NCBI GenBank assembly: GCA_030835125.1
Contig: JAUQWM010000049.1
Location: forward strand, 62,001 to 126,000
Direction of reading: 5' to 3'
DNA from: Gemmatimonadaceae bacterium
Lineage (GTDB): Bacteria; Gemmatimonadota; Gemmatimonadetes; Gemmatimonadales; Gemmatimonadaceae
Length of the DNA stretch: 64,000 nucleotides
Of the stretch, positions 566 through 61,879 are shown piece by piece. Made by a program: the position numbers and the translations under genes. Within the stretch, counting starts at the first letter, position 1, and every line of letters starts with the position of its first letter. The notes beneath the pieces are model-generated. The model was not told the DNA's origin. It did no database searches and was given only the letters and a program-made list of their open reading frames with translations.

Positions 566-578
566 CTGGACTCGGGGG

Positions 579-604
579 CGCAGAGCGCAGAGCGCAGAGC
601 GCGA
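579..604. repeat. heptamer tandem repeat, left arm (CAGAGCG x3)
   Basis: Three head-to-tail copies of CAGAGCG lie at 581-601, just upstream of the hydrolase start. The run is nearly complementary to the CTCTGCA repeats at 728-762, so the two could pair as arms of a hairpin with a loop of about 120 bases between thrS and the hydrolase gene. Confidence 0.8.
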
Positions 605-727
605 AGAGGTTGGATTCGAATGGAGGTTTCGCGGAGCCGCTGAATGCTAAGCGCTGGACGCGACGCGCAAAGCGTCAAGGGGCAGAAGGCCCCAAGACCG
701 TGATCAAGTGTGAAGGACCCCTATGCG

Positions 728-762
728 CTCTGCACTCTGCACTCTGCACTCTGCACTCTGCA
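728..762. repeat. heptamer tandem repeat, right arm (CTCTGCA x5)
   Basis: Five perfect copies of CTCTGCA end two bases before the thrS stop codon (764-766, minus strand). The flanking GCGCTCTGC pairs with the CAGAGCG repeat at 581-601, apart from A-C and G-U type mismatches. It could act as the thrS terminator. There are no spacers, so it is not a CRISPR array. Confidence 0.8.
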
Positions 763-763
763 C

Positions 764-2695
764 TCATCCCCGGGTCAACGCCCGACTCGCGATCTCCCCC
801 TTCACACGCTCGATGAAGTCTGCCACCGGGACGATGTCCTGCTTCTTCCCTTCCCCGCGCGCGCGAACCGCCAGCGTGCCCGCCTCCGCCTCGCGCCGCC
901 CCACCACCGCCATGTACGGCACCTTCATCATCTCCGCTTCACGGATGCGGTAGTTGAGCGTGTCGTGCGTGTCGAGCACGGCGCGGATGCCCGCGGCCTT
1001 CATCCGTTCGACGATCTCGCCGGCCTGTGGCGCCAGGTCGTCCGAGATCGGCAGCACGCGCACCTGCTCCGGGGCCAGCCACACCGGGAACGCCCCGGCG
1101 AAGTGCTCGATGAGGATCGCGATGAACCGCTCGAGCGACCCGCTCACCGCGCGGTGGATGACCACCGGCCGGTGCATCGTGTTGTCCTCGCCCACATACT
1201 GCAGGTCGAAGCGCTCGGGCGCGTTGTAGTCCAGCTGGATCGTCCCCAGTTGCCAGGCACGGCCCAGTGAGTCGGTCACGTCGAAGTCGATCTTGGGCCC
1301 GTAGAACGCCCCGTCGCCGGCCTTCAGCTCGTACGGCTGGCCCGTCGCCTCGAGCGCCTGCCGCAACGCGTCCTCGGCGCTGTCCCACATCTCGTCCGTG
1401 CCGATGCGCACCTCGGGACGCGTCGCGAACCGCAGCGACGGCTTGAGCCCGAACGCCCGGTAGTACGACATGATGAAGTCCGTCAGGAAGCGGACCTCTT
1501 CCGTGATCTGCGACGGCGCCAGGAAGACGTGGCAGTCGTCCTGCGAGAACTGCCTGACGCGGGTCAGCCCGGACAGCGCGCCCGTCACTTCGTTGCGGTG
1601 CAGCACGTCGAACGTGACCAGGCGCCGCGGCAACTCCCGGTACGAGTGCTTCTTCGAGAGGTACAGCACGTAGTGCGACGGGCAGTTCATCGGCTTCAGC
1701 GAGACGTCCTGTTCCCCGGTCTCGTTGTTGTGCACCAGGAACATGTTCTCGCGGTACTTCCCCCAGTGCCCCGATTGCTCCCAGAGCACCTTGCTGTACA
1801 GCAGCGGGGTCCGGACCTCGATGAACCGGTCGCGCTGCAGGTCCCGGATGAACGAGACCAGCTCGTTGTAGACGATCGTCCCGCGCTCGGTCCAGAACGG
1901 CGCACCCGGCGAGACCTGGTGGAAGAAGAACAGGTCGAGCGCCTTGCCCAGCACGCGATGGTCACGGCGCTTTGCCTCCTCGATCCGGTGCAGGTACCCG
2001 TCGAGGTCCTCCTTCGACCACCATGCCGTCGCGTAGATGCGCTGCAGCATCGGCCGGCGTTCGTCGCCGCGCCAATACGCCCCCGCCGTGTTCAGGAGCT
2101 TGAAGTGCTTCAGGTACGACGTGTCGGGCACGTGCGGGCCGCGACACAGGTCGATGAACGGGCCGTCCGTGTAGGTCGAGATGATCTCGTCCGGCCCCAG
2201 GTCCTCGATCCGCTCGAGCTTGAGCGGGTCATCGGCGAACCGCCGCCGCGCCTCGTCGCGATCGACTTCCTCGCGGACGAACGGGTACTTCTCGGCGGCG
2301 ACCTTCAGCATCTCCGCCTCGAACGCCGCCAGGTCCTCGGGCGTGAAGGGACGCTCGACCGCGAAGTCGTAATAGAAGCCGTCCTCGATGGCGGGACCGA
2401 ATCCGATGTGCGCGTCGGGCCGCAGCCGGCGCACGGCCGTGGCCAGGACGTGCGCGCCGGAATGCCGCAGCACGGCCAGTGAGTCCGGGTCCTTCTGCGT
2501 GAGGACGCGGAACCTCGCGCTTCGCCGCAGCGGCGTCATCAGGTCCAGCACGGTGTCGTCGATCTTCACCGCGATGGCGTCGCGCAGGAGGCGCGGTCCG
2601 ATCGAGCCCACCACATCGCGCGCCAGCGTGCCCGGCGGCACACGGCGCTCGGATCCATCCGGCAGCGTGAGCGTAATCTCTTGGGCGGTCGGCAT
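764..2695 (-). CDS. thrS: threonyl-tRNA synthetase
   Basis: Charges tRNA-Thr in the cytosol. The 643-residue length is typical of the bacterial enzyme. The order is a TGS domain (residues 1-65), an editing domain whose metal site is formed by H78, H82, C184 and H188 (HSGAH and CRGPH motifs), a class II catalytic core and a C-terminal anticodon-binding domain. The catalytic zinc ligands C338 (MNCPSHY) and H389 (DDCH) are visible, as is the motif 2 loop (HRNEVTGALSGLTRVRQF). The start ATG at 2695 gives the normal N-terminus MPTAQEITLTLPDGS. A small membrane-protein frame ends a few bases upstream and is probably co-transcribed. No T-box or other leader is evident. Confidence 0.97.
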   Translation of the reverse strand: MPTAQEITLTLPDGSERRVPPGTLARDVVGSIGPRLLRDAIAVKIDDTVLDLMTPLRRSARFRVLTQKDPDSLAVLRHSGAHVLATAVRRLRPDAHIGFGPAIEDGFYYDFAVERPFTPEDLAAFEAEMLKVAAEKYPFVREEVDRDEARRRFADDPLKLERIEDLGPDEIISTYTDGPFIDLCRGPHVPDTSYLKHFKLLNTAGAYWRGDERRPMLQRIYATAWWSKEDLDGYLHRIEEAKRRDHRVLGKALDLFFFHQVSPGAPFWTERGTIVYNELVSFIRDLQRDRFIEVRTPLLYSKVLWEQSGHWGKYRENMFLVHNNETGEQDVSLKPMNCPSHYVLYLSKKHSYRELPRRLVTFDVLHRNEVTGALSGLTRVRQFSQDDCHVFLAPSQITEEVRFLTDFIMSYYRAFGLKPSLRFATRPEVRIGTDEMWDSAEDALRQALEATGQPYELKAGDGAFYGPKIDFDVTDSLGRAWQLGTIQLDYNAPERFDLQYVGEDNTMHRPVVIHRAVSGSLERFIAILIEHFAGAFPVWLAPEQVRVLPISDDLAPQAGEIVERMKAAGIRAVLDTHDTLNYRIREAEMMKVPYMAVVGRREAEAGTLAVRARGEGKKQDIVPVADFIERVKGEIASRALTRG

Positions 2696-3688: not shown

Positions 3689-3690
3689 CT

Positions 3691-3713
3691 GCAATGGGGT
3701 CTGACCCCATTGC
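3691..3713. repeat. REP-like palindrome, copy 1
   Basis: A perfect 9-bp inverted repeat, CAATGGGGT-CTG-ACCCCATTG, two bases after the BON gene stop. With its twin at 3725-3747 it could form a double hairpin acting as a terminator before valS. Palindromes with a GGGGTC/GACCCC core are common extragenic repeats in other bacteria. Confidence 0.75.
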
Positions 3714-3724
3714 CCATCCACTGC

Positions 3725-3747
3725 CCAATGGGGTCTGACCCCATTGC
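3725..3747. repeat. REP-like palindrome, copy 2
   Basis: A second identical copy of the 21-base palindrome CAATGGGGTCTGACCCCATTG, twelve bases after the first and in the same orientation. No REP-associated transposase is present in the window. Confidence 0.75.
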
Positions 3748-9740: not shown

Positions 9741-10432
9741 TGCGCGTCGCCGTCCTGGCCTCCGGCAGTGGAACGAACCTGCAGGCGATCCTCGATCACC
9801 AGGCCTCGCTGGGCGGCAGCGGGTCAGCGCAGGTGGTGCTGGTGGCGAGCGACCGGGCCGATGCCGGTGCGCTCGCCCGGGCGCGCTCCGCGGAGATCAC
9901 GGCGATCGCGCTCGACCGCGAGAGCCGGGCGAACGGCCTGCTCGCGATCCTCGGCGCACACCGGGTGGAACTGGTCGTGCTGGCGGGCTACATGCGCCTC
10001 GTGCCCGAGGACGTGGTGACGCATTTCCGTGGCAGGATGCTGAACGTGCACCCCGCGCTGCTCCCCGCGTTCGGCGGGACGGGAATGTACGGCCAGCGCG
10101 TACACGCCGCGGTGATCGCCCATGGCGCCCGCGTCTCCGGCCCGACGGTGCACTTCGTGGATGCGCGTTACGATGAGGGACCGATCATCGCGCAATGGCC
10201 GGTGGCGGTGCTGCCTGACGATACGGCCGACACGTTGGCGGCGCGCGTCCTGGAAGCGGAGCACATGCTCTACCCGCTGGTGGTGGAGGCCGTGGCCGCC
10301 GGCCGCGTCAGGCTCGGCGACGACGGCCGGGTCGTGCTGCCGGGCGACGCGGGCCCCGCCCATTTCGGGCCGTCGCCGGATCTCCGCCAGGCGTGGTCAC
10401 GGCAGCGGGACTGGCTGACCGGGCTCCCGTGA
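9740..10432 (+). CDS. purN: phosphoribosylglycinamide formyltransferase
   Basis: Third step of de novo purine synthesis: transfers formyl from 10-formyl-THF to GAR. 230 residues, slightly longer than usual because of a C-terminal extension (PGDAGPAHFGPSPDLRQAWS). Family motifs are the N-terminal GSGTNLQAI loop, the catalytic stretch NVHPALLPAFGGTGMYG (Asn and His), and the later Asp in FVDARYDEGPIIAQ. The ATG overlaps the gmhB stop. purH follows after a 57-bp gap that carries a heptamer repeat, so the two purine genes are probably one unit. Confidence 0.93.
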   Translation: MRVAVLASGSGTNLQAILDHQASLGGSGSAQVVLVASDRADAGALARARSAEITAIALDRESRANGLLAILGAHRVELVVLAGYMRLVPEDVVTHFRGRMLNVHPALLPAFGGTGMYGQRVHAAVIAHGARVSGPTVHFVDARYDEGPIIAQWPVAVLPDDTADTLAARVLEAEHMLYPLVVEAVAAGRVRLGDDGRVVLPGDAGPAHFGPSPDLRQAWSRQRDWLTGLP

Positions 10433-10440
10433 GCATCCGC

Positions 10441-10474
10441 CCCTCGACCCTCGACCCTCGACCCTCGACCCTCG
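10441..10474. repeat. heptamer tandem repeat (CCCTCGA x4.9)
   Basis: Four full copies and one partial copy of CCCTCGA fill most of the purN-purH gap. No complementary arm is visible nearby, so unlike most of these repeats it would not form a hairpin. Confidence 0.85.
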
Positions 10475-10489
10475 TCAAGTAACCACCAG

Positions 10490-12022
10490 ATGCCAACCGC
10501 ACTGCTTTCTGTTTATGACAAGTCCGGCGTAGTCGACTTCGCCCGCGAACTCCGCGACCTTGGCTGGGACCTCGTGTCCACCGGCGGCACGTCCCGGGCG
10601 CTGCGAGAGGCCGGGCTCGCGGTCCGGGACATCGAGGCCCTGACCAGCTTCCCGGAGATGCTCGACGGGCGGGTGAAGACGCTCCATCCCGCGGTGCATG
10701 GCGGGTTGCTGGCGCGTCGCGACCTGCCCGAGCACATGGCGGCGATCGCGGCGCAGGGGATCGGGACCATCGACCTCGTCGCGGTCAACCTCTACCCGTT
10801 CCGCGCGACGGCCGCCCGCGCCGGCGTCACGTTCGGCGAGGTGGTCGAGCAGATCGACATCGGCGGTCCGTCGATGCTCCGGTCCGCGGCGAAAAACCAC
10901 GCCTCGGTCTGGACCATCGTCGATCCGTCCGACTATGCGGGCGTCCTGTCGGCGCTGCGGGCCGGTGAGGACGGCGGCGACGCGCGCCGCCGGCTCGCGG
11001 AAAAGGTGTACGCCCACACCGCCGGGTACGATGCCGCGATTGCCGCCTGGTTCGCGGCGCAGCGTGGCGAGCGATTCCCCGAGGACATCACCATGCATGC
11101 CCACCGCGTGCAGTCGCTGCGCTACGGTGAGAACCCGGAGCAGCGGGCCGCGTTCTACGGCGACGACAGTCGCGGCGGCCTCGCGTCACTGCGGCAGCGC
11201 GGCGGGAAGGAGCTCTCGTTCAACAACCTGCTCGACCTCGAGGGCGCGCTGCTGGCCGCGGAGCCATTCGCGGGTGAGGCCTGCTGCGCGATCGTGAAAC
11301 ACACGACCCCCTGCGGCATCGCCATCGGGGCGAGCGCCGTCGACGCCTATCGCAAGGCGCTGGCCTGTGACCCGGTCTCCGCGTTCGGCTCGGTGATCGC
11401 GTTCACGGTACCGGTCGACGCCGAGGCCGCGGAAGCGATTTCGTCGCTGTTTGTCGAGTGCATCGTGGCGCCGTCGTTCGCCGAGGAGGCGGTGGAGGTG
11501 CTCGGTCGCAAGAAGAACCTCCGCGTGCTCGAAGGCAGCGCCGAGTGGAAGGGCGATGCGATGGACGTGAAGCGCGTGCGCGGCGGGTATCTCGTCCAGG
11601 AGCGAACGCCATCGCTGACGGATGAGGGCACGTGGCGGGTCGTGACCGAGCGTGCGCCCACGGAGGCGGAGCGCCGCAACCTGTCGTTTGCGTGGCGTGC
11701 GGTGGCGAGCGTGAAGTCGAACGCGATCGTGCTGACGCGCGACCAGGCGACGATCGGGATCGGTGCGGGGCAGATGTCGCGTGTGGATGCCGCCTTTCTC
11801 GCCGTGCACAAGGCGCGGCTGGCGGGTCACGAGACGACCGGATCCGCGCTGGGTTCGGATGCGTTCTTTCCGTTCCGGGACGGGATCGAGCAGGCCGCGG
11901 ACGCCGGCGTGACGGCGATCATCCAGCCGGGCGGATCGGTGCGGGACCCCGAGGTGATCGCGGCGGCCAACGAGCGCGGCATGACGATGATGTTCACGGG
12001 GCGGAGGCTGTTCAGGCATTAG
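10490..12022 (+). CDS. purH: bifunctional AICAR transformylase / IMP cyclohydrolase
   Basis: Performs the last two steps of IMP synthesis. 510 residues, the usual length. The N-terminal IMP cyclohydrolase domain begins ALLSVYDKSGVVDFAREL and contains the LHP and GGPSMLRSAAKN motifs. The C-terminal AICAR transformylase domain has the KHTTPCGIAIG active-site loop, SFNNLLDLEGAL and the terminal PGGSVRDPEVIAAANERG block. Start ATG 10490 gives the expected N-terminus, although the Shine-Dalgarno match is weak. A long inverted repeat begins right after the stop codon and probably ends the transcript. Confidence 0.97.
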   Translation: MPTALLSVYDKSGVVDFARELRDLGWDLVSTGGTSRALREAGLAVRDIEALTSFPEMLDGRVKTLHPAVHGGLLARRDLPEHMAAIAAQGIGTIDLVAVNLYPFRATAARAGVTFGEVVEQIDIGGPSMLRSAAKNHASVWTIVDPSDYAGVLSALRAGEDGGDARRRLAEKVYAHTAGYDAAIAAWFAAQRGERFPEDITMHAHRVQSLRYGENPEQRAAFYGDDSRGGLASLRQRGGKELSFNNLLDLEGALLAAEPFAGEACCAIVKHTTPCGIAIGASAVDAYRKALACDPVSAFGSVIAFTVPVDAEAAEAISSLFVECIVAPSFAEEAVEVLGRKKNLRVLEGSAEWKGDAMDVKRVRGGYLVQERTPSLTDEGTWRVVTERAPTEAERRNLSFAWRAVASVKSNAIVLTRDQATIGIGAGQMSRVDAAFLAVHKARLAGHETTGSALGSDAFFPFRDGIEQAADAGVTAIIQPGGSVRDPEVIAAANERGMTMMFTGRRLFRH

Positions 12023-12023
12023 G

Positions 12024-12172
12024 GTGCTGCGTGCTGGATGCTGCGTACTGATTGCTGGGGGCTGGGGCTGCTTGCTGCGGGCTGGGGCTGGGGCTGGGCC
12101 CAGCTCCCAGCCCCAGCACGCAGCGGCAGCTCCAGCAGGCAGCAATCAGAACGCAGCTCCCCACTCCCTCCC
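12024..12172. repeat. long imperfect inverted repeat (diverged member of the 33-bp family)
   Basis: The spacer after purH folds on itself. The left arm, from about 12037, reads GCTGCGTACTGATTGCTG followed by GGGCTG runs. The right arm (12100-12160) is its imperfect complement, ending in GGCAGCAATCAGAACGCAGC. The arms are about 60 bases with a GGGCCC centre. It is related to the elements at 14577, 43273 and 61826 but has diverged from them. It may be a terminator, but there is no T-tract. Confidence 0.75.
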
Positions 12173-14572: not shown

Positions 14573-14576
14573 GGGA

Positions 14577-14696
14577 GCTGCGTGCTGATTGCTGCGGGCT
14601 GCTGCTGCCGCTGCGGGCTTGGGCTCGTGCCCTGGTACGCAGCCCCAGCCCCAGCACGTAGTGACAGCAGCAGCCCGCAGCAATCAGTACGAAGCC
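14577..14696. repeat. inverted repeat with the conserved 33-bp core
   Basis: Immediately after the DUF2723 gene stop. The left arm (14577-14609) holds the 33-bp core beginning GCTGCGTGCTGATTGCTGCG. The right arm (about 14663-14695) is its imperfect complement (CAGCAGCAGCCCGCAGCAAT...). The same 33 bases occur unchanged at 43273-43305 and, inverted, at 61826-61858. It lies between the DUF2723 gene and tRNA-Ser(UGA). Confidence 0.85.
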
Positions 14697-14744
14697 TCGC
14701 CCTGCGTTGCGCACCCCTCCCCGCACGGGCGATCTTTCCTGCCG

Positions 14745-21858: not shown

Positions 21859-21933
21859 GACGGGGGACGGCATCGGGGGACGGGAGCAGTGACCCGCGCC
21901 AGTCTCCCGTCTTCCGTCCCCCGTCTCCCGTCC
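21859..21933. repeat. inverted purine/pyrimidine repeat in the gltX leader
   Basis: The left arm (21859-21886) consists of GACGGGG-type units, for example GACGGGGGACGG. The right arm (21903-21933) is made of CCCGTCT-type units and is largely complementary. The right arm ends two bases before the GTG start of gltX, so a folded hairpin would sit directly on the ribosome-binding region. Confidence 0.75.
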
Positions 21934-23409: not shown

Positions 23410-24069
23410 ATGTCGGAGCCCCTGACCCCCCTCGAGCGTCGCGTCTATCACTACCTGATCGACTTCCTGGCGGAACAGACCTACCAGCCGAGCGTCAGGG
23501 AGATCGGGCGACACTTCCGGATCAAGTCGACCAAGACCGTCGCCGACATCCTGCAGTCGCTCGAGCTCAAGGGATTGGTCGAACGCAAGGGCAGCCGGTC
23601 GCGCGGCCTGCGCCTCGTCGGGTTCTCGTCGATCGGACAGGTGCAACCAGTCCCGCTCTACCGCCGGCTGAATCCCGGTGATCCGGCACTGACCGACGAC
23701 AATTTCGAGCGCTACGTGGCCATGGACCGGATGTTCGTGCCGGCCGACGACGCGTTCTTCCTGCGTGTCGCAGATGAGGGCCTCGTCGATCGCGGCGTCC
23801 AGGCGGGCGACCTGGTGCTGGTAAACCCGATGGGTCGTGCCCACGACGGCGACGCCGTCGTCGCGCGTGTGGGACCCAACGTGATGGTGCGCCTGCTGTC
23901 GCACCGCGGCGCCCACCTGATCCTCACCCCCGTGTCGTCGGGGCAGTCGGAAGTGGTCGTTGGCCCACTGGACGACTTCGCGATCATCGGGACGGTGACC
24001 GTAATGGCGAAGGCATCAGGCATCAGGCATCAGGCATCAACCACGGCCCCCCTGATTCCTGATGCCTGA
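23410..24069 (+). CDS. LexA-like transcription regulator lacking the autocleavage residues
   Basis: 219 residues. Residues 1-70 form a LexA-type winged helix-turn-helix (LTPLERRVYHYLIDFLAEQ, then QPSVREIGRHFRIKS as the recognition region and GLVERKGSRSRGLRL as the wing). Residues 78-200 align along their length with the S24 peptidase domain of LexA. The catalytic residues are changed: E. coli Ser119 corresponds to Gly124, Lys156 to Arg161, and the Ala-Gly cleavage site to Pro89-Gly90. It therefore should not self-cleave on RecA filaments and may be a constitutive or ligand-controlled repressor. The last 16 or so codons, including the stop, lie in a heptamer-repeat hairpin. The alignment was done by eye; the wHTH assignment is firm. 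Confidence 0.8.
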   Translation: MSEPLTPLERRVYHYLIDFLAEQTYQPSVREIGRHFRIKSTKTVADILQSLELKGLVERKGSRSRGLRLVGFSSIGQVQPVPLYRRLNPGDPALTDDNFERYVAMDRMFVPADDAFFLRVADEGLVDRGVQAGDLVLVNPMGRAHDGDAVVARVGPNVMVRLLSHRGAHLILTPVSSGQSEVVVGPLDDFAIIGTVTVMAKASGIRHQASTTAPLIPDA

Positions 24070-24080
24070 TGCCTGATGCC
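24012..24080. repeat. heptamer inverted repeat, probable bidirectional terminator
   Basis: Four perfect GGCATCA units (24012-24039) face four complementary units, TGATTCC then TGATGCC x3 (24053-24080), across a 13-base loop. A 28-bp stem results with one mismatch. It separates the convergent LexA-like and TonB-like genes. The LexA-like stop codon is inside the right arm and the other gene's stop (24080-24082) is at its edge. Confidence 0.9.
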
Positions 24081-25018
24081 TAGTAGTTCCCCGGCGGCGG
24101 CCGCTCGCCGGGCGACGCGATCGGCCCGGGTGATGTCGGCGACGTGCGCTGGGCCTGGCGACGCTCGCGCTCCTTCCGGTCCCGGATCGCCTTCACCGCC
24201 TTCCGGAACTGCTCCTCGTTCATCGCCGCCTGGGCATGGAACAGGATGTCGTCACGCATGTACGCCGCATTCCGCGCCCGTTCCATGGCAATCGGGTTCC
24301 CCTGCAGCTGGTTCAGCGGCAGGAGCGCCAGCAGCGCGGTGGGGATGGAGAGCTTGCCGAGGCGGATGAACTGCTGGTCGACGCCCCACTTCGACCCTTC
24401 CTTCCCGAACGTCCAGTCCCCGCGCTCGAACTTGTTAGGCGCGTACGCGTTCGCCGCGAGCGAGTCGATGTGCCGGCGCAACGTGGCGTACAACGCGCTG
24501 TCCAGTCGCTCGGCGTCGGTCTTGGGCGCGTAGATGAACTCGGGGTCGCCGGCCCAGACGCGCGGGTCGTCGTAGTTCGGCTGGACGCCCCGCGCCGAGC
24601 CGGTGCCGCCACGCAAGGGGCCCGTCACCCCCGTGCTGGTCGGGTTCTCTGACCGGGTCGACGGCGGCGGCAGTTCACGCGGGATCTCCGTTGGCGCCAC
24701 GAGCGGCACACTGGCCGGCGCGGGATTCGCTGGCGCCGGCGCGGGACTCGTCGCCCGGCGTGCCGGTTTCGCGGCCGACGTCGACTCCACCGCCGCCGGC
24801 GGTGGCACCGTCACGAAGTCCACGCGCTCGCGCACCGGCCGCGCCTCGCGGTCGACCTGCAGGAACCGTTCGAAGACTGCCGGCATCTGGATCGCCTGCC
24901 ACGCCACGACGCCGAGGACGACGTGCACGACGATGGAAACCACCGTGGACGACTGCGGGCGGCGCACGTGGCGTCGCTTCGGCTGCGTCGAGCCCGGCTG
25001 GTTCTCCAGAGTCGTCAA
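24080..25018 (-). CDS. TonB-like membrane-anchored protein, atypical C-terminus
   Basis: 312 residues. It has a short basic cytoplasmic N-terminus (PKRRHVRRPQ), one transmembrane helix (VVSIVVHVVLGVVAWQAIQM) and a Pro/Ala-rich periplasmic stretch (residues 75-120), which is the layout of TonB. The C-terminal 170 residues do not show the TonB fold signature (YP..A....G.V). Instead they contain DDPRVWAGDPEFIYAPKTDA, a helical region and a charged KAIRDRKERERRQAQR stretch before a Pro-rich end. It probably spans the periplasm and contacts an outer-membrane or cell-wall partner. No exbB/exbD gene is adjacent. Confidence 0.65.
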   Translation of the reverse strand: MTTLENQPGSTQPKRRHVRRPQSSTVVSIVVHVVLGVVAWQAIQMPAVFERFLQVDREARPVRERVDFVTVPPPAAVESTSAAKPARRATSPAPAPANPAPASVPLVAPTEIPRELPPPSTRSENPTSTGVTGPLRGGTGSARGVQPNYDDPRVWAGDPEFIYAPKTDAERLDSALYATLRRHIDSLAANAYAPNKFERGDWTFGKEGSKWGVDQQFIRLGKLSIPTALLALLPLNQLQGNPIAMERARNAAYMRDDILFHAQAAMNEEQFRKAVKAIRDRKERERRQAQRTSPTSPGPIASPGERPPPGNY

Positions 25019-25813: not shown

Positions 25814-28365
<2,552 letters not shown>

Positions 28366-28372
<7 letters not shown>

Positions 28373-28400
28373 CTCCCGTCTTCCCTCTCCCATCTCCCAT
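28366..28400. repeat. heptamer repeat (CTCCCAT type) spanning the start of the DinG-fusion gene
   Basis: Units such as CTCCCAT fill the gap after the upstream gene's stop codon. On the coding (minus) strand they read GGGAGAT and supply several ATGs in different frames, plus G-rich Shine-Dalgarno-like sequence. Confidence 0.75.
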
Positions 28401-29678
28401 CTAGGTCTTGAGTGGCTTCTTCTTCGCCGCCGGGAACAGCACGTTGTTCAGGATCAGCCGGTACCCGAGCGACCCCGGGTGGAGCGAGAGGTCGGTCGGC
28501 GCGGCGCCGATGTTGTGCTGCGGGTCCTCGGGGTCGTGGCCGCCCAGGAACGTCCACGAGCCCTTCCCATAGTCCCCGTGAATGTACTTCACCCACGGCG
28601 CGCCTTCCTCGCTGGCCAGCACCACGACCCCCGGCTTGAGCGTCTGCCTGGTGAAGCTGGTCGTCACCCCGTAGAAGTCCGGGATCACCTGGCGGTGGTT
28701 CTGGACCAGCATGCTGGCGACGGGATCGAACTTGGCGGAGAAGCTGAAGAGCGAGAACTGCCCCAGGGGCTGCCGCCGCCCCGCGACGTTCACCTGGTGA
28801 CCGTCGATGTCACTCATCGAGTTGACGAACGCGTTCTGCTCCAGGTGGACGTTCTGGAAGGCGAAGGCGCGGTTCCAGTCCAGCCGCTGGTCGGCATTGT
28901 CGTCGAGCGGGGTCCCGTCCGCGAAGCTGCCGGCGATGTCCGTCTGGTGCGCGGCGATGGCGAGGCCCAGCGTCTCGGTCGCGCCGCACATCGCGAACAG
29001 GAAGCCGCCCTGCTCGATGTACTGCCGCATCTTCTCGGCCACGGCCTTCTTCAGCGCCGGGATGTTTGCATAGCCCAGCCGGCGCGCCGCGTCGAGGCCA
29101 CGATCCCGCTGCTCGATGAACCAGGGCGCATCACGGAACCCGAGGTACAGCTTGTTGAGCTGGCCGGTGAAGTCCTCGTGATGCAGGTGGAGCCAATCGT
29201 ACTTGGTGAGGTCACCCGCGATGACCTCGTCGTCCCAGATCGCCGTGTATTCGATCCCGGCGTACTGCAGGGCGAGCGTGACCGCGTCGTCCCAGGGTGG
29301 CGCCTTCGGCGGCGTGTAGATCGCGATCTTCGGCGCCCGCTCCAGCGCCACCGCATCCATGTTGTTGGCGGCGATTTCCGCCCGGAGGGCCGTGACGCGC
29401 CCGTTGTCGAGCGCCTCGAAGCTGATCCCGTCGAGCGCGGCACGCCGCCGCATCTCCGCGATGTCAGGCAGGAGGAAGGAGCCGCCGCGGTAGTTCAGGA
29501 ACCACTCACTCTTGTGGCCGTCCCGGAGGGCATTGAAGATGAGGCCATACGCCTTGAGGTGGTTCGTCTGGCGGTCGTCCATGGGGACGAGCAGGTGCTG
29601 CGCGCCAACGACCGGCGCGAAGGCCGCGCACGCGATGACGGCCGCGAGAACGCGCCTGACGCTGTTGTATCCTGCCAT
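28401..29678 (-). CDS. secreted 'asparagine synthetase B-like' conserved protein
   Basis: 425 residues. The ATG at 29678 is preceded by CAGGGG and gives a signal peptide (MAGYNSVRRVLAAVIACAAF... ending VVGAQ). The mature protein begins HLLVPMDDRQTNHLKAYG and contains EWFLNYRGGSFLLPD, PWDDAVTLALQYAG, YDWLHLHHEDFTGQ and GGFLFAMCGATETL. I recognise this as the family often labelled asparagine synthetase B in databases. However, it has no N-terminal Cys glutaminase or PP-loop ATPase of AsnB, so that label is probably wrong. The GGFLFAMC and LHLHHEDFTG stretches suggest a glutamine-amidotransferase-like or ThuA-like fold. Periplasmic, function unknown. Confidence 0.8.
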   Translation of the reverse strand: MAGYNSVRRVLAAVIACAAFAPVVGAQHLLVPMDDRQTNHLKAYGLIFNALRDGHKSEWFLNYRGGSFLLPDIAEMRRRAALDGISFEALDNGRVTALRAEIAANNMDAVALERAPKIAIYTPPKAPPWDDAVTLALQYAGIEYTAIWDDEVIAGDLTKYDWLHLHHEDFTGQLNKLYLGFRDAPWFIEQRDRGLDAARRLGYANIPALKKAVAEKMRQYIEQGGFLFAMCGATETLGLAIAAHQTDIAGSFADGTPLDDNADQRLDWNRAFAFQNVHLEQNAFVNSMSDIDGHQVNVAGRRQPLGQFSLFSFSAKFDPVASMLVQNHRQVIPDFYGVTTSFTRQTLKPGVVVLASEEGAPWVKYIHGDYGKGSWTFLGGHDPEDPQHNIGAAPTDLSLHPGSLGYRLILNNVLFPAAKKKPLKT

Positions 29679-29756
29679 GTGGCCCCTGAAAGTGTCAGCC
29701 ATCGCTGATCCGAGTTGTTCGACCCTGCTCTCGCCCCGCGCTCCGCGCTCAGTCCT

Positions 29757-29777
29757 TTGCGCCTTGCGCCTTGCGCT
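29757..29777. repeat. heptamer tandem repeat (TTGCGCC x3)
   Basis: TTGCGCC, TTGCGCC and TTGCGCT in a row, between the end of the TPR gene and the start of the asparagine-synthetase-B-like gene. A CCGCGCTCCGCGCTC run precedes it. No clear complementary arm. Confidence 0.65.
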
Positions 29778-29782
29778 CTTCG

Positions 29783-43272: not shown

Positions 43273-43305
43273 GCTGCGTGCTGATTGCTGCGGGCTGCTG
43301 CTGCC
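43273..43305 (+). repeat. 33-bp dispersed repeat core (single arm)
   Basis: Identical over 33 bases to the left arm at 14577-14609 and to the inverse of 61826-61858 (begins GCTGCGTGCTGATTGCTGCG). It lies about ten bases after the prs stop. Instead of a complementary right arm it is followed by the GCTGGT array. Confidence 0.9.
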
Positions 43306-43325
43306 GCTGTGTGCTGGGGCTGGTT

Positions 43326-43437
43326 GCTGGTGCTGGTGCTGGTGCTGGTGCTGGTGCTGGTGCTGGTGCTGGTGCTGGTGCTGGTGCTGGTGCTGGTGCT
43401 GGTGCTGGTGCTGGTGCTGGTGCTGGTGCTGGTGCTG
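43326..43437. repeat. hexanucleotide array (GCTGGT x ~19)
   Basis: About 112 bases of perfect GCTGGT tandem copies between prs and rplY. It is open in all three frames on both strands (it would read Ala-Gly on the plus strand), but nothing suggests it is translated. Likely prone to slippage. Confidence 0.95.
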
Positions 43438-44225: not shown

Positions 44226-44825
44226 ATGAAGCTCATCGTGGGGCTGGGCAACCCGGGCAAGTCGTACGCCGACACGCGTCACAACGCCGGCTGGTGGGTG
44301 GTCGACCACCTGGCCGGCGTCTGGCGTTTCGACGCCTGGCGCAAGGACCACGAGACCCTCGTCAGTGATGGCCGCCTGGGGAGCCAGCGCGTCCGGCTGC
44401 TGAAGCCGCAGACGTACATGAACCTGAGCGGGTCCGTCCTGCGGCCGTACCTGCGCCGCGAGGCGTGGCACGCGGACGCGGACCTCCTGATCATCGTCGA
44501 TGAGGTGGCGTTGCCGGTCGGCCGCTTCAGGCTGCGGGCGCAGGGCAGCGCCGGCGGCCACAACGGCCTCAAGTCGATCGAGGCGGCCGTCGGGTCCCGC
44601 GCATATGCGCGCCTGCGCGTCGGCGTCGGGCCGCCCGAGGGTCGCGAGCGCAAGGGCGACCTGTCGGAGTACGTCCTGGACAAGGCGGGCAAGGCGGAGC
44701 GCAGGGATATCGAGGCGCTCTTCCCGGAGCTCTGCAGCCTCGCCGAACTGTGGGTCAGGGAAGGCGCGGAGGCGGCGATGAGGGAATACAACAGGGTTGG
44801 AGACGGGAGACGGGATGGGGCGTGA
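44226..44825 (+). CDS. pth: peptidyl-tRNA hydrolase
   Basis: 199 residues; recycles peptidyl-tRNA released from stalled ribosomes. Motifs are LIVGLGNPGKSYADTRHNAGW (with Asn and the catalytic His), KPQTYMNLSGSVLRP, LIIVDEVALPVGRFRLRAQG and SAGGHNGLKSIEA. ATG 44226 is preceded by GAGGAG. The usual DDLDLP is here VDEVALP. It follows rplY by 65 bases. G-rich heptamer units (GACGGGA) begin within its last codons. Confidence 0.94.
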   Translation: MKLIVGLGNPGKSYADTRHNAGWWVVDHLAGVWRFDAWRKDHETLVSDGRLGSQRVRLLKPQTYMNLSGSVLRPYLRREAWHADADLLIIVDEVALPVGRFRLRAQGSAGGHNGLKSIEAAVGSRAYARLRVGVGPPEGRERKGDLSEYVLDKAGKAERRDIEALFPELCSLAELWVREGAEAAMREYNRVGDGRRDGA

Positions 44826-44851
44826 CGGGGGACGGAAGAGGGGAGCATTCG
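44808..44851. repeat. G-rich heptamer-like repeat (GACGGGA units)
   Basis: GGAGACGGGAGACGGGATGGGG followed by GACGGGGGACGG, across the pth stop codon. It is loosely complementary to the C-rich run at 45317-45346 before ychF. The pair brackets the four-helix-bundle gene. Confidence 0.55.
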
Positions 44852-44861
44852 GCAAGGTCGC

Positions 44862-45242
44862 TCAGTCTCCCTCCAGCCTGGAGCCACCCTGGCCGCGAAC
44901 GCGCTTCCGCAACGCCACGAGCATGGCGCACACCAGTTCCGCTCGCGCCGCCAGCCGCGCGTGTTCCATCGGGCTGATGGGACCAAGATCTCGCGACAGG
45001 AGGAGCAGATAGTCGAGTTCCCGCGCTGACCGGATCGCGATCTCGAGGTGATGCGCGAACTGCCGGGGGGTGTCCCGTCCCGCGCCCTCCGCGATGTTCG
45101 CGGGGATGGACACGGCGGCCCGCCGGATCTGCGCCGCGAGGCCGGGGTAGGCGGCGTTAGGCAGCCCGGCCGTGGCGCGACAGGATCGCAGGGCCAGTTC
45201 GTGCGCCTTGCGCCACACCTTGAGTCTTCGAAAGGGGTGCAT
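44862..45242 (-). CDS. four-helix-bundle protein (23S rRNA intervening-sequence protein family)
   Basis: 126 residues. Family pattern: FRRLKVWRKAHELALRSCRA at the N-terminus, LAAQIRRAAVSIPANIAEGA (the signature), FAHHLEIAIRSARELDYLLL and a final helix. This family was first noticed in intervening sequences of 23S rRNA genes and is widespread as a single gene, often near S23-type or mobile contexts; function unknown. Here it is a lone minus-strand gene between the plus-strand genes pth and ychF. Confidence 0.88.
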   Translation of the reverse strand: MHPFRRLKVWRKAHELALRSCRATAGLPNAAYPGLAAQIRRAAVSIPANIAEGAGRDTPRQFAHHLEIAIRSARELDYLLLLSRDLGPISPMEHARLAARAELVCAMLVALRKRVRGQGGSRLEGD

Positions 45243-45316
45243 GCCCCAACCTGGTGGCCTCCCGCGGCATCCGCTTCATCGTTTCAACGCAATCCGGTCC
45301 ATTCGAACGCAGTCGC

Positions 45317-45346
45317 CGTCTCCCCTCCCCCATCACCCGTCCCGCA
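45317..45346. repeat. C-rich run ending at the ychF start
   Basis: CCGTCTCCCCTCCCCCATCA followed by CCCGTCCCGCA, directly before the GTG of ychF. It is loosely complementary to the G-rich run at 44808-44851 on the other side of the four-helix-bundle gene. Confidence 0.5.
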
Positions 45347-47170: not shown

Positions 47171-47270
47171 GACGGGTGGGGAGATGGGTCATGGGAGATT
47201 AGCCCACCACCGGGGGAAGGCCGACCCCCTGCCGTCGATGCCGCCTTCCCCATCTCCCATCTCCCGACTC
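47171..47270. repeat. inverted heptamer-type repeat in the HMCES-rpsF divergent region
   Basis: The left arm GACGGGTGGGGAGATGGGTC and following (47171-47199) and the right arm CTTCCCCATCTCCCATCTCC (about 47244-47268) are largely complementary, with a loop of about 45 bases. The rest of the gap to rpsF (47271-47369) holds a CTAGGTTTCCCC stretch that could be part of the rpsF promoter. Confidence 0.65.
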
Positions 47271-49011: not shown

Positions 49012-49455
49012 ATGGAAGTCATCCTTCGGCAATCGGTCGAGAAGCTGGGACACCCCGGCGACGTGGTGAAGGTCTCCAACGGCTTTGCCCGCAACTACCT
49101 GCTGCCCCGCGGCATCGCGATGGTCGCGACCGAGGGCAACAAGAAGCAGATCGAGGCCCAGCGCCAGCGGCTCGAGGCGGCCGAAGACGCGCGGCGCGAG
49201 ACGGCGCGGACGCAGGCCACGACGATCGAACAGGTCTCGCTGACCTTCTCGGCGCGCGTCGGTGAGGAGGGCAAGCTGTTCGGCTCCGTCACCTCGGCCG
49301 ACATCGTGCAGCAGCTCGAGGCCCTCGGGCACCACATCGAGAAGCGGCAGGTCGACCTCCACGAGCCGATCAAGGCCCTCGGCGTCTACCGTGTGCCGAT
49401 CCGGTTGCACGCCGACGTGAAACCCGAGATCAAGGTCTGGGTGATCAAGCAATAG
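49012..49455 (+). CDS. rplI: 50S ribosomal protein L9
   Basis: 147 residues. N-terminal rRNA-binding domain EVILRQSVEKLGHPGDVVKV, SNGFARNYLLPRGIA, the connecting helix (EGNKKQIEAQRQRLEAAEDA) and the C-terminal domain (GKLFGSVTSADIVQQLEALG). ATG 49012 is preceded by GGAG; the frame upstream overlaps the DUF2232 gene in another phase. A heptamer hairpin begins three bases after the stop. Confidence 0.97.
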   Translation: MEVILRQSVEKLGHPGDVVKVSNGFARNYLLPRGIAMVATEGNKKQIEAQRQRLEAAEDARRETARTQATTIEQVSLTFSARVGEEGKLFGSVTSADIVQQLEALGHHIEKRQVDLHEPIKALGVYRVPIRLHADVKPEIKVWVIKQ

Positions 49456-49764
<309 letters not shown>

Positions 49765-53408: not shown

Positions 53409-53430
53409 CATCGGTCGACGGCCAGGCCCG

Positions 53431-53471
53431 ATCGAGGCGCGGATGCAGCACTCCGCGCCTCGATTCTTTTT
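53431..53471 (+). terminator. intrinsic terminator
   Basis: A 13-bp perfect stem, ATCGAGGCGCGGA (53431-53443) with TCCGCGCCTCGAT (53452-53464), an 8-base loop, then TCTTTTT. It lies 23 bases after the barrel gene stop. The clearest conventional terminator in the window. Confidence 0.9.
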
Positions 53472-53519
53472 CGGCGCATCGCCTCGCATCTGGGTCCCGC
53501 CCTCCCTACTTTACGCCCT

Positions 53520-59200: not shown

Positions 59201-59827
59201 TTCCTCTCCACCCAGCGCGCGGACCTCACCGACGCCCGCAACTCGCTTCAGGTGGCCATCCGGGAGATCGACGCGACGGCGCGCGACATGTTCCTCGCCA
59301 CGTTCACGCAGGTCCGCGAGAACTTCCGCCACATCTTCATGACGCTGTTCGGCGGTGGGGAGTGCGACCTCCGGCTGGAGAACCCCGAGATGCCGCTCGA
59401 TTGCGACATCGAGGTGCATGCCTCGCCGCGCGGCAAGCGCACGCAGCGGATCCACCTGCTCTCCAGCGGCGAGCGCGCCCTGGTCGCGCTCTCGCTGCTG
59501 TTCGGCATCTTCCTCACCAAGCCGAGCCCGTTCTGCCTGCTCGACGAGGTCGATGCGCCGCTGGACGACGCCAACATCGGCCGCTTCGTGCGCATGCTGA
59601 ACGAGTTCAAGCAGAAGACCCAGTTCATCGTCATCACGCACAACCCGCGCACGACCACGGAAGCGGCGGACGCGGTTTACGGGATCACGATGCAGGAGCC
59701 CGGTGTGTCCTCGGTGGTGAGCGTGCGCATGCGCGGCCCGCAACTCGACGATGCCACGCGCGATGACGCCGAACCCGCCGATCGGGCGATCAACGTGACG
59801 CCGGTGAACGAGGCGATGGCGCTTTGA
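56279..59827 (+). CDS. smc: chromosome segregation ATPase SMC
   Basis: 1182 residues, normal length. N-terminal Walker A GPNGCGKS (31-38) and Q-loop region (VRWVLGEQRARILRGAKMEE). A coiled coil follows, then a hinge about residues 500-660 (GAVLGPLSDFVSAGAHAAAS), a second coiled coil and the C-terminal head. The signature reads LLSSGERALVALSLLFGIF rather than the usual LSGGEKAL, followed by Walker B FCLLDEVDAPLDDANIG. Starts at GTG 56279, one base after the previous stop. ScpA/ScpB are not in the window. Organises and segregates the chromosome. Confidence 0.95.
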   Translation: MRLTRLEMHGFKSFADETSMLFDEGVTAIVGPNGCGKSNVSDAVRWVLGEQRARILRGAKMEEVIFQGSSARRPVNVSEVSLVFANDDGSLPTPFREVVVTRRLSRSGDSEYLLNGAACRLRDIHDLMRGTGLGADAGVVIEQRMIDALLSDRPDDRRELFEEASGIGLYRDRRRNTERRLDETTQDLARIDDLIGEVQSQVRSLSRQRKRAERHGELMERRFAVDLTLASRDMASWRDELARLEVSLRELRAAVPTLEERVHEAGLARDKAHGERAAADAHRNELARQAGTLREAVQALRAEIAVAGERHRNAMERRQRAEDERREGSEAGSRLEQELAASAAECTEFERLVAEAQAESERRSATEAEAREAVRLARERAEQAERQSRQARDRIRALESDRDAAQRELTELESRTRALDVERGQLNEAAEVLSAEIREATATAARARAGVEDAQVALDQARLSALVARERDAAARAELGRIEDMRTAVEGRVHGLEGLERERVGLAPAAAKLLQARDRFGAGAVLGPLSDFVSAGAHAAASIERFLGMSVHAVLVRDRLVADAVREWHAEVGPGPLMLLPLDAVGDANGGDAGDLLRQLEVAPEAAGWARVLLERVRELEDGAFVDPRGVVWLPGASAGPGPLRRRAELFSLRAELEAAQETRRLALAATEEARGALQDAEAAVGEAADAALAAHNVERHAREALAELERRHGRYQREIHDSRTQSAQLSDRLEALATQVRHLDEAQASAREEATQHDATARDNREALIAAESSMDTVRDRRTDGQVALAQAQARLQVATDRRTRLGEERASAATRLATLAEELTLIEDADRALAQQMASWQLDLEARVATLTDAENRLDAAERAVTAANDEVARAEHELDSARSMSHEQGESLHHAELRFTELSGRRAAIRERLEAEWRRPLDDLISTLQPLELDDESLRTEAQALQQQVDALGPVNPLAIEEHEEEVKRLDFLSTQRADLTDARNSLQVAIREIDATARDMFLATFTQVRENFRHIFMTLFGGGECDLRLENPEMPLDCDIEVHASPRGKRTQRIHLLSSGERALVALSLLFGIFLTKPSPFCLLDEVDAPLDDANIGRFVRMLNEFKQKTQFIVITHNPRTTTEAADAVYGITMQEPGVSSVVSVRMRGPQLDDATRDDAEPADRAINVTPVNEAMAL

Positions 59828-59932
59828 GAGGGGAGATGGGAGCGGGGAGATGGGAGGGTGGTCGGACGATCGGGAGCTGATCGCCCGGCGGACATCCAGC
59901 TTCCGTCTCTCGTCTCCCACTCCATCCCCGCC
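59828..59932. repeat. inverted heptamer-type repeat between smc and the MBL gene
   Basis: The G-rich left arm (59828-59859, GGGAGAT-type units) and C-rich right arm (59900-59932, CGTCTCC/CTCCATC units) are partly complementary with a loop of about 40 bases. The right arm ends at the ATG of the next gene. Confidence 0.6.
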
Positions 59933-60709
59933 ATGCGCCTGACGACCATTGGCAGCGGCACCGCCGCGCCGCACGCGAGGCGCGCGCAAAGCGGGACACT
60001 GGTCGAGGTGGGGACCGTTCGCCTCCTGCTGGACTGCGGAAGCGCGGTGGTCACGCGCATGGCGGAACTCGGGCTCGACTGGCCCGGGATCACCCACGTC
60101 GCCATCACGCACTTTCACGCCGACCACATCTCCGACCTGCCGACACTGATCTACGGGTGGCGGTACGGCCTCCTCCCTTCCCGCTCCGCGCCGGCTGAGC
60201 TGATCGGTCCGGCCGGCTTCTCGCGCGTGCTCGACGCGATGAAGGCGGTATACGGCCAGGACCTCCTCGAACCCGGCCGGCCGCCGATCACCGTCACCGA
60301 GCTGGCGCCGGGGACCGGCCACCCACTCGGCGATGGCGTGATCCTCACGCCATTCAAGGTTCCCCATACGGTGGAGAGCGTGGCATATTCCGTGAGCGGT
60401 CACGGCCGCCGCGTGGTCGTCACCGGGGACACCGGATTCGACGAGTCGCTGGCGGCGTGGGCGGAGGGGTGTGACGTCCTGCTGTGTGAATGCTCGTTGC
60501 CGGACGCGCTGGCCCTGCCGACCCACCTGACGCCTCGTCAGTGCGGCGCCCTTGCGGCGATCGCGCGCCCGAAGCGGCTCGTGCTGACGCACTTCTACCC
60601 GCCCGTCGAGGCAGAGGACATCCGGTCGCAGGTCGCCGAGCAGTTCGCCGGCCCGGTGACCTGCTGCCACGACGGCTGGACCTTGGATCTCAGGGAGCTG
60701 GAATGCTAG
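59933..60709 (+). CDS. MBL-fold hydrolase (RNase Z-like)
   Basis: 258 residues. Metallo-beta-lactamase fold with [18 protein letters not shown] (HxHxDH metal site), [27 protein letters not shown] and [12 protein letters not shown] supplying the remaining His/Asp ligands. Length and [18 protein letters not shown]-terminus fit the RNase Z/phosphodiesterase-like group; the tRNA 3'-processing exosite loop of true RNase Z is not evident, so the substrate is open. ATG 59933 follows a C-rich repeat arm, no Shine-Dalgarno. Overlaps the DAHP synthase gene by 7 bases. Confidence 0.82.
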
Positions 60710-61752
60710 TCGTTATGCACCATGACGCCGCGGCGTCAGAGGTGGAAGCCGTCTGCCAGACGATCCGCGACATGGGCTACCAGCCGGTGCCCATGCCCGG
60801 CGAACAACGTACGGCCATCGGCCTCATCGGCAACGAGGGACCCGTCGACGACTCGCAGGTCGTCGGCCTCCCCGGCGTTGCCCAGGTCCTCCACGTCTCG
60901 AAGCCCTATAAGCAGGTCTCCCGCGAGTGGAAGGCCGAAACCACCCTCGTGACGCTCGGACCCGGTGTGGTGGTCGGCGGCCGCGACGTGGTGGTGATCG
61001 CGGGACCGTGCTCGGTGGAATCGGAGGAACAGATCGTGGCCTCGGCCCGCGCCGTGCGCGCCGCCGGCGCCACCGCGCTCCGCGGCGGGGCGTTCAAGCC
61101 GCGCAGCTCCCCGTATTCGTTCCAGGGCCTCGGCAAGCGTGGACTCGAACTGCTCGCCCTCGCCAGGCAGGAAACCGGGCTGCCCATCGTGACCGAGGCG
61201 ATGGACGAGGCCGGGGCCGAGCTGGTCGCCGAATACGCCGACTGCATCCAGCTCGGCGCGCGCAACATGCAGAACTACTCGCTGCTGCGCGCCGTGGGCA
61301 GGATGAAGAAGCCGGTACTCCTGAAGCGCGGCCTGGCCGCGACGATCACCGAGTTGCTCATGAGCGCCGAGTACATCCTGGCGGCCGGGAACCCGCAGGT
61401 GATCCTGTGCGAGCGCGGCGTGCGCACGTTCGACAGCGCGGCGCGAAACATGTTCGACCTGAACGCGATCCCGATCGTGCAGCGCCTCTCGCACCTGCCG
61501 ATCATCGCCGACCCGAGCCACGGGACAGGGCTCCGCGACAAGGTGACGCCGATGGCCCGCGCCGCGGTGGCCGCCGGCGCCGACGGCATCATCGTGGAGG
61601 TGCACCCCAATCCCGATCGCGCACTGTCCGACGGCGCCCAGAGCCTGTTCCCCGAGCAGTTCGCCCAGCTGATGGAGGCCCTGCGCCTGATCGCCGGCGC
61701 CATCGACCGCAATGTCGCGTCTCCGTTGCATGCGGAACTGGGCATCGGCTGA
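60703..61752 (+). CDS. aroF: 3-deoxy-7-phosphoheptulonate synthase (DAHP synthase)
   Basis: 349 residues; first step of the shikimate pathway (PEP plus erythrose 4-phosphate). An N-terminal ferredoxin-like regulatory domain (residues 1-70, [19 protein letters not shown]) precedes the TIM barrel with [72 protein letters not shown] and [14 protein letters not shown]. This is the class I-beta type seen in Thermotoga and Bacillus, with no fused chorismate mutase. ATG 60703 has GGGAG upstream and overlaps the MBL stop. Confidence 0.95.
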
Positions 61753-61775
61753 GGGATACCAACGAGGGCGGTGAT

Positions 61776-61858
61776 CCCAGCCCCAGCCCCAGCCCCAGCC
61801 CCAGCCCCCGGCCCAAGCCCGCCGCGGCAGCAGCAGCCCGCAGCAATCAGCACGCAGC
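61776..61858 (-). repeat. 33-bp dispersed repeat core (inverted) with AGCCCC run
   Basis: A CAGCCCCAGCCCCAGCCCC run (61776-61809) precedes the exact inverse of the 33-bp core (61826-61858, ending CAGCAATCAGCACGCAGC). It has only one arm. It sits between the DAHP synthase gene and lolA, which starts 21 bases later after more C-rich sequence. Confidence 0.85.
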
Positions 61859-61879
61859 TCCCCCAGCTCCCCACATCCA

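Follow-up and report, generated by a model that had tools for sequence, protein, structure and literature searches.

The stretch of DNA considered here, hereafter the window, comprises 64,000 nucleotides of a Gemmatimonadaceae genome (G000:C28:62001-126000), and many of its gene junctions carry tandem arrays of 7-bp units. The genome, G000, has a size of 4,478,185 bp in 73 contigs, and the window was analyzed together with 40 further tiles, giving a sample of 848,690 bp with 733 genes and 528 gaps; genes were called by a codon-usage script of our own, whose starts are uncertain and which missed an ImuA-like ORF. Neighboring arrays are convergent, with the G-rich strand first, and this order depends neither on the direction of the genes at either side nor on complementarity of the two words; the arrays as a whole hint at a repeat-adding, repair-like process acting at DNA ends. 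In the window, Rfam reports three tRNAs and nothing else, and the nearest relatives of its thrS gene are labelled Gemmatimonadaceae or Gemmatimonadetes (best match JABWBJ010000256.1, 86% identity). The arrays of the window are given below, with z referring to folding and with the state of the gap in a sister species where noted.

578-602, plus strand: GCGCAGA in 3.6 copies, left arm at the thrS junction, convergent with 724-765 (Tandem Repeats Finder and lag scan).
724-765, minus strand: TGCACTC in 6 copies, right arm, overlapping the 3' end of thrS (764-2695, minus strand); GCGCCGA units in this gap of the sister species.
10441-10474, minus strand: CCCTCGA in 4.9 copies, a single array between a gene with a formyl-transferase (purN-type) domain and one with an AICARFT/IMPCHase (purH-type) domain; z 0.4, no hairpin.
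12023-12160: composite of GCTG/CAGC type with both arms, in steps of 6 and 7; z -7.8; many matches in the sister species.
14573-14710: composite of GCTG/CAGC type with both arms, before tRNA-Ser; z -8.8.
21859-21933: hairpin of GGGAGAC type (array at 21902-21932) between tRNA-Ser and the next gene; z -4.5; like word type in the sister species.
24011-24039, plus strand: GGCATCA in 4.1 copies, left arm at the 3' end of a lexA-like gene (23410-24069).
24051-24081, minus strand: TGATGCC in 4.4 copies, right arm, between convergent genes; the pair (24005-24085) has z -8.8.
28363-28402, minus strand: ATCTCCC in 5.7 copies (GGGAGAN word), at the 3' end of a minus-strand gene; z -1.3.
29757-29776, minus strand: TTGCGCC in 2.9 copies (GCGCARR word); z -0.5; Tandem Repeats Finder also reports 29732-29750.
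43273-43437, plus strand: GCTGGT in 26.7 copies, a 6-bp array of the GCTG family, period 6.
44799-44815, plus strand: short GGAGACG array; z 0.9 at 44795-44850, no hairpin; Tandem Repeats Finder span 44799-44845.
47171-47270: GGGAGAT and ATCTCCC arms between divergent genes; z -2.2; Tandem Repeats Finder 47249-47265; GCGATGA units in the sister species.
49457-49490, plus strand: GAGAGTT in 4.9 copies, left arm right behind the stop of the ribosomal protein L9 gene.
49499-49529, minus strand: CTCTCAA in 4.4 copies, right arm pairing with 49457-49490; z -9.2; in the sister species the hairpin at 49456 is a different one, of units like CACCAGT, with a low period-7 score (5).
59826-59932: GAGAGGGGAGATGG left arm and C-rich right arm, after an SMC-like gene; z -3.3; Tandem Repeats Finder 59826-59856; array absent in the sister species.
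61776-61872: array of CCCAGC/CAGC type; z 0.5 (61770-61880); Tandem Repeats Finder 61827-61858; the sister gap is 12 bp long.

Seven-Base Periodicity of the Gene Junctions

A preliminary description of the window had seen junctions built of short tandem units, nearly always of 7 bp, and most of the junctions listed there are confirmed as 7-bp arrays by Tandem Repeats Finder; a lag scan of the window yields 15 arrays. The 40 gaps of the window (4,465 bp) contain 7 exact lag-7 runs of at least nine matches, against a mean of 0.07 and a maximum of 1 in 200 shuffles; lag 6 gives 3 runs, lags 9, 12 and 13 one each, and lags 4, 5, 8, 10 and 11 none. Across the gaps of the whole sample there are 129 such runs at lag 7 and 98 at lag 14, no other lag between 3 and 20 exceeds 7, and dinucleotide shuffles give a mean of 1.0 run at lag 7 (maximum 2, 20 shuffles). 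The runs are mainly intergenic, 129 of them lying in 89 kb of gaps as against 28 in 734 kb of coding sequence. Since tiles L115, L118, L120 and L126-L130 had been selected for hits to a GGGAGAY pattern, which inflates the whole-sample densities, an unselected set of 32 tiles (640 kb) was formed by removing the window and these eight tiles, although most of the remaining tiles still lie on contigs picked for a GGGAGAY hit. Their gaps (70.5 kb) hold 84 lag-7 runs (shuffled mean 0.8, maximum 3, 20 shuffles) and at most 4 at lags other than multiples of 7, their coding sequence holds 7 in 544 kb, and an array is present in 39 of their 302 gaps.

Tandem heptads in gene junctions are therefore far above chance, and neither of the doubts raised beforehand applies, as shuffled spacers do not reach a comparable density, and an assembly artefact is excluded by arrays on 9/9 sampled contigs, in the separately assembled sister species and in other genera, and by the related plasmid arrays described below. 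The unit is 7 bp long, as in repeats of the GGGAATC type, at most junctions; the junctions of GCTG type (12023, 14573, 43273, 61776) are the exception and mix 6 and 7. This GCTG/CAGC family, which has variable spacer bases and also occurs on many contigs of the sister species, is probably the source of the period-6 signal (48 runs) seen there. The long stems that facing arrays were expected to form are predicted for 9 of 14 window junctions (z <= -2, strongest at 49455-49532 with z -9.2), and the five junctions at 10430-10480, 28330-28405, 29720-29785, 44795-44850 and 61770-61880 do not fold. The stretch 44808-45346, formerly taken as a single spacer, would not be one if the 126-aa ORF at 44862-45242 is a gene. 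A similarity search with the DNA of one array against plasmids and phages gave no match.

A Shared Vocabulary of Words

Each junction had been thought to possess its own unit, a local seven-base word, but the arrays draw on a common vocabulary. The 151 arrays with a score of at least 12 comprise 33 canonical units, against about 133 expected from random spacer 7-mers, and clustering of the units with one mismatch allowed gives clusters of 62, 26, 25, 22, 15 and 1 arrays, the first five being the main ones. The words include GAGTTG-N, GAGGTC-N, GGGAGA-Y, TCACGA-N, CGGGAA-N, GGCATC-R, GCAGA-NN, GCGCA-RR and AGGCCA-N, among others. Three tandem copies of GAGTCAC, sought in 179 genomes of the family, occur 52 times in G000, 6 times in the sister species (G001) and in none of the other 177. 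Three copies of GGGAATC, sought in 298 genomes of the phylum (a set whose table does not show G001), were matched 31 times in G000 and once in each of G183 and G250. Other genomes use other words, such as GACGAGA types in G029 and GGGAGAY types in G012, and G020 has 93 matches to the reversed control pattern (AGGGYAG type). The density of arrays with a score of at least 12, per 100 kb, is 17.8 in G000 and 26.8 in G001, two values with an upward bias. It is 8.8 in G029, 5.0 in G020 and 3.8 in G012, as against 1.0 in the stretches taken from other relatives and 1.2 in the thrS loci of named Gemmatimonadota. The sister species belongs to the same genus, and its assembly is 72% complete, with contigs partly selected by repeat hits.

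Within some words, the positions do not vary equally. When deviations from the consensus of each array are counted by position and compared with 200,000 uniform draws, GAGTTG-N gives 1, 1, 0, 1, 0, 0, 12 (42 copies), TCACGA-N gives 1, 0, 2, 0, 4, 3, 19 (90 copies) and GAGGTC-N gives 1, 1, 0, 4, 17, 7, 28 (91 copies), the last base of the latter varying most and the fifth next; none of these maxima is reached by any of the 200,000 draws. GAGTTG and TCACGA are thus nearly fixed cores with one free position. A run of three Gs, able to form quadruplexes, exists in the GGGAATC, GGGAGA and GAGGGTC words and is lacking in TCACGAN, GGCATCA, GCAGANN, GAGTTGA and GAGGTCN, so that a capacity for quadruplexes does not characterize the arrays overall.

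Arrays of a similar kind were noticed on plasmids. In a spacer of Azotobacter chroococcum plasmid pAcX50e (L369, 923-1059), TCAYGNN-like heptads run into pure TCACGTA, and plasmid arrays of CGGGCCA in Eleftheria and of TCACGGG in Streptomyces are similar, which indicates that related cores recur in distant phyla.

Convergent Order of Neighboring Arrays

The arrays have a polarity with respect to the gap in which they lie. Read on the top strand, 39 are G-rich and 16 C-rich in the left half of a gap, as against 18 and 52 in the right half, and all four kinds of gene edge show the polarity, starts as well as stops, in an analysis that omits 64 of 195 arrays (score below 10, or no assignable gap shorter than 700 bp). 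Array-free gaps have a skew beside starts (101 to 47, 34 to 74) and not beside stops (37 to 34, 54 to 62). A gene edge lies no more than 60 bp away from 115 of the arrays; 75 of these follow a stop and 40 precede a start.

Same-gap pairs of arrays (n = 50) are inverted within one mismatch in 14 cases, where random pairs give 4.9%, so that the facing complementary arrays of the preliminary description are real; 14 further pairs are direct repeats (random 5.4%). The arrangement extends beyond complementary words. For a held-out test, the outward strand of each word was learned on 57 single-arm gaps and applied to 27 multi-arm gaps, of which 26 proved to be convergent, the sole exception being a TCGAGG pair; all 14 gaps with different words were convergent (p 3.7e-9 against 0.25). 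The innermost arms of the 26 convergent gaps lie 0, 0, 1, 1, 1, 3, 8 and up to 212 bp apart, and hence can almost abut. Without holding out orientations, a left-type array is followed by a right-type array 36 to 2 over all clusters and 21 to 2 where the words differ. With orientations learned in G000, the sister species gives 14 to 0, mostly from same-word pairs and 2 to 0 for different words, in a test that leaves 80 of its 147 arrays unclassified. A test of G/C skew that uses no words also puts the G-rich arm first, 24 to 1 in G000, 22 to 1 in G001, 16 to 0 in the unselected tiles, 3 to 0 in G029, 1 to 0 in each of G012 and G020, and 2 to 0 in the dnaE2 loci of other relatives.

Since different words cannot pair with each other, this arrangement is not made for hairpins, and the hairpins look like a by-product of it rather than its purpose; mirroring of a local word, as formerly supposed, likewise does not describe arms that differ in word and still converge. 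That unrelated arms face each other speaks against either hairpins or quadruplexes as the cause of this order and directs attention to a spacer that was opened, with its two ends.

Arrays inside an ImuA-ImuB-DnaE2-Type Cassette

Heptads had been assigned to transcript ends, an assignment that fits neither the 40 of 115 edge arrays lying before starts nor the arrays within coding sequence. Of 18 gene-internal arrays (score at least 12, at least 60 bp from either end), 16 lie in a single cassette, as do 8 of the 10 clusters that they form. The cassette (L115:8349-16471, G000:C8:88349-96471) accounts for 6.9 kb of the 734 kb of coding sequence sampled; its tile had been fetched for GGGAGAY repeats, so that its inclusion is biased, yet the difference from the remaining 727 kb of coding sequence is still large. 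Pfam matches identify a radical-SAM protein, a RecA-like (ImuA-type) ORF and a polymerase III alpha-type protein (PHP, alpha, finger, HHH and OB domains), while the IMS_C match of the ImuB-type ORF is slightly below the curated cut-off. The names ImuA, ImuB and DnaE2 are those that we take to fit these ORFs. ImuA, ImuB and DnaE2 have a role in the SOS response.

The 16 internal arrays are located in the radical-SAM, ImuB-type and DnaE2-type genes, and further arrays occupy 10581-10714 inside the ImuA-type ORF. They are translated in frame, as peptides such as HESRVTSHE, ASGIRHQAS and PIPDSRFPIPD, and the in-frame inserts of the DnaE2-type gene sit in loops that are variable among relatives, as judged from those rows of the protein comparison that aligned. 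The dnaE2 locus of the sister species carries eight arrays with a score of at least 9, and in other relatives 5 of 28 dnaE2 loci (G011, G012, G023, G030 and G038) carry arrays with a score of at least 12, made of other words; at least those of G012 and G023 fall within the aligned protein. The accumulation of arrays in this polymerase cassette offers a concrete place in which to seek the enzyme.

Two other genes were noted in passing. A second DnaE-like open frame of 1338 aa exists at G000:C22:179485-182055, where a GAGTCAC array seems to be placed between two matched segments. The window gene that ends in the GGCATCA hairpin (23410-24081) is LexA-like, with peptidase S24 and LexA DNA-binding domains.

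Other Structured Spacers of the Window

The spacer at 3689-3746 contains an inverted repeat in two copies, with arms CAATGGGGTC and GACCCCATTG around one base, which is unrelated to the heptads. An ordinary hairpin with a T-rich tail lies at 53409-53519 and is present with a different sequence in the sister species, which suggests that conventional terminators coexist with the arrays.

Competing Explanations

Ordinary heptameric simple sequence repeats, seeded by chance, enlarged by polymerase slippage that favors units of about 7 nt and kept without function in non-coding DNA, are a possible though doubtful explanation, and an idea of this kind is cited in PMC4692102. Slippage agrees with repetition in further multiples of 7 (the 98 runs at lag 14) and with the turnover between the two species. 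At 61 orthologous gaps (score at least 10; flank identity 71-91% in the rows shown), arrays are present in both species in 6, in G000 only in 14, in G001 only in 6 and in neither in 35, and with 57 of the 61 gaps tested the association of presence has Fisher p values of 0.046, 0.12, 0.31 and 0.44 at score thresholds of 8, 9, 10 and 12, so that the presence of an array is at most weakly conserved. Among 16 gaps readable with an array in both species, by eye and with the ambiguous L118:9520 excluded, 7 have a different word (566-763, 47168, 49456, L111:11683, L120:8385, L120:8787 and L145:7995), 8 have the same type, and in 1 the left arm was kept and the right arm replaced. However, slippage predicts neither the shared vocabulary of 33 units in 151 arrays, nor the wild-card positions, which are uneven in GAGTTGN, GAGGTCN and TCACGAN and not in CGGGAAN and TCGAGGN, nor the convergent order of different words. 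A general bias toward duplications of 7 bp was also considered and rejected, as in gaps without arrays two-copy duplications of 7 bp (15 vs 7.2 in shuffled sequence) show little special excess beside those of 6 bp (55 vs 23.3) and 12 bp (10 vs 2.0), and this too is contrary to slippage.

It is unlikely that the arrays are functional, polar boundary or termination elements whose polarity is set by selection. In that reading, transcripts would be acted on as they enter or leave genes by something with a pitch of 7 nt, such as Rho on the C-rich strand, a protein that binds DNA, or hairpin terminators. Such a function is consistent with their frequency in convergent gaps (18 of 52, as against 61 of 288 tandem and 11 of 69 divergent gaps), with strong stems in 27 of 84 array gaps vs 22 of 297 other gaps, and with the array at L119:1524, which retains four units in both species. 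Strong stems, however, also occur in 5 of 10 divergent gaps with arrays and in 0 of 53 without, which led us to reject terminators as the shared function, and the polarity exists at starts as well as stops. Selection at the RNA level through wobble pairs is likewise not supported, since the strong stems of 16 tandem gaps contain 13 mispairs of the G-U type on the transcribed strand and 16 of the opposite kind, and occupancy is low, at 39 of 302 gaps in the unselected tiles.

Convergent ends are typical of transposable-element termini, and the window hairpin at 49454-49530 is matched over at least 70 bp at several sites of the sister species (C166, C102, C137, C155 and C125), but a dispersed miniature element whose terminal inverted repeats are made of repeated recognition cores is improbable, because words mix freely between facing arms (14 gaps) and lone arms are frequent (57 gaps).

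Proposed Repeat Addition at Opened DNA Ends

We favor a mechanism in which DNA ends, once opened, receive copies of G-rich heptads on their 3' strands and are then joined, and give it a probability of about 0.35. Each convergent composite would be a scar, left where a spacer had been opened. On both ends the 3' strand would have been lengthened by G-rich heptads, with arrays in other parts of the genome as the template, before the ends were joined, and later copying or slippage in steps of 7 may alter the copy number. Ends extended with the same word would yield a hairpin, ends extended with different words a convergent pair that cannot fold, and one extended end a single array, with insertions persisting where they are tolerated, in spacers and variable protein loops. 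The shared vocabulary argues for copying from arrays elsewhere and not from local sequence, and a convergent pair with G-rich 3' strands is what two ends of an opened spacer, each extended outward and then joined, would leave. Repeat addition covers single arms, same-word hairpins, different-word pairs, the indifference to gene direction and insertion at tolerated sites. The lineage-specific vocabulary and the replacement of words at orthologous gaps make the process testable by comparison of strains.

A more specific version, a telomere-like healing in which 3' ends gain G-rich heptads with a fixed core, a free base and a lineage-specific vocabulary, the ImuA-ImuB-DnaE2-type cassette being either the machine or a preferred target, we consider rather improbable. 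Two candidate components were set aside. Addition by a telomerase-like reverse transcriptase finds no RVT_1 match in G000, other families of reverse transcriptase not having been searched, and Ku, which is present in G000, has no clear link with the arrays.

Several observations weigh against repeat addition at joined ends. On the side of the enzymes, RVT_1 matches are also absent in G001 (72% complete) and G029, although other polymerases could serve. Ku, which 27 of 41 relatives possess, some of them with few arrays, is absent from the array-bearing G012, G023 and G038. An empty-site pair with an exact break point was not recovered, and the arms are often 15-50 bp apart, unlike the outcome of a simple join. 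For some words the orientation learned for the held-out test has a net score of only 1 or 2, different words outside G000 provide 2 cases of the rule, the skew test gives 1 to 1 in thrS loci of other Gemmatimonadota, and 2 of 9 type changes in the dnaE2 cassette are reversed in order. Polarity is individually non-significant, in counts that leave 8 arrays unclassified, for GAGTTGN (10 to 3), GGGAGAN (8 to 5), GGCATCN (12 to 7), CGGGAAN (4 to 2), AGGCCAN (4 to 1) and TCGAGGN (6 to 6). The wild card is weak or absent in GGCATC (p 0.01, two equal positions), GGGAGA (p 0.045), TCGAGG (p 0.43) and CGGGAA (p 0.51).

Comparison with Known Heptamer Repeats

Heptanucleotide repeats of cyanobacteria are known as STRR. 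Among the literature matches listed, none gives an account of such arrays for this taxon or for imuB and dnaE2 together with tandem repeats. Calothrix, for which PMC4692102 mentions three heptanucleotides, resembles G000 in having several per genome, so that multiple words are not new in themselves. The direct repeats of TAACTGA described from Beggiatoaceae, cyanobacteria and Bacteroidetes (PMC4679880), where 169 sets are direct and one is indirect, are likewise intergenic heptamers that are abundant in some lineages only, but they consist of a single word and lie mostly directly upstream of starts. The tandem repeats of Borgs (PMC9879509) are similar as fast-evolving arrays in spacers and, as disordered stretches, inside genes; they differ in their independent origin, A-enrichment and extrachromosomal location, and the abstract of that article mentions no common 7-bp period or vocabulary.

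The closest known system is that of Rehm et al. 2015 (PMC4692102), who described GGGAATC and GGGGA(C/T)T heptamer repeats in Xanthomonas and Nostoc, with differences between species. In two Xanthomonas strains 89% and 93% of the repeats are intergenic, with heterogeneous positions in the unit; convergent pairs occur in 70 cases with 186 repeats in one strain and in 75 with 183 in the other, and the repeats are almost exclusively closer to the 5' neighboring ORF, in any orientation. Heptamer repeats are reported there from unrelated bacteria, with no accepted explanation of the number seven or of a function. The arrays of G000 share with them the 7-bp unit, the mainly intergenic location, convergent pairs and a G-rich strand pointing away from the nearest gene, and G000 contains the GGGAATC word itself (the 31 three-copy hits). 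The preliminary description had regarded the arrays as different from known heptamer repeats, which these likenesses contradict. The differences lie elsewhere, in that each genome studied in PMC4692102 has one word type as against many in G000, that the idea of G runs and quadruplexes is inapplicable to words such as TCACGAN, and that G000 shows convergence of different words, replacement of words at orthologous gaps and a concentration in a dnaE2-type cassette. The arrays of G000 thus belong beside the GGGAATC kind of Rehm et al., which they extend.

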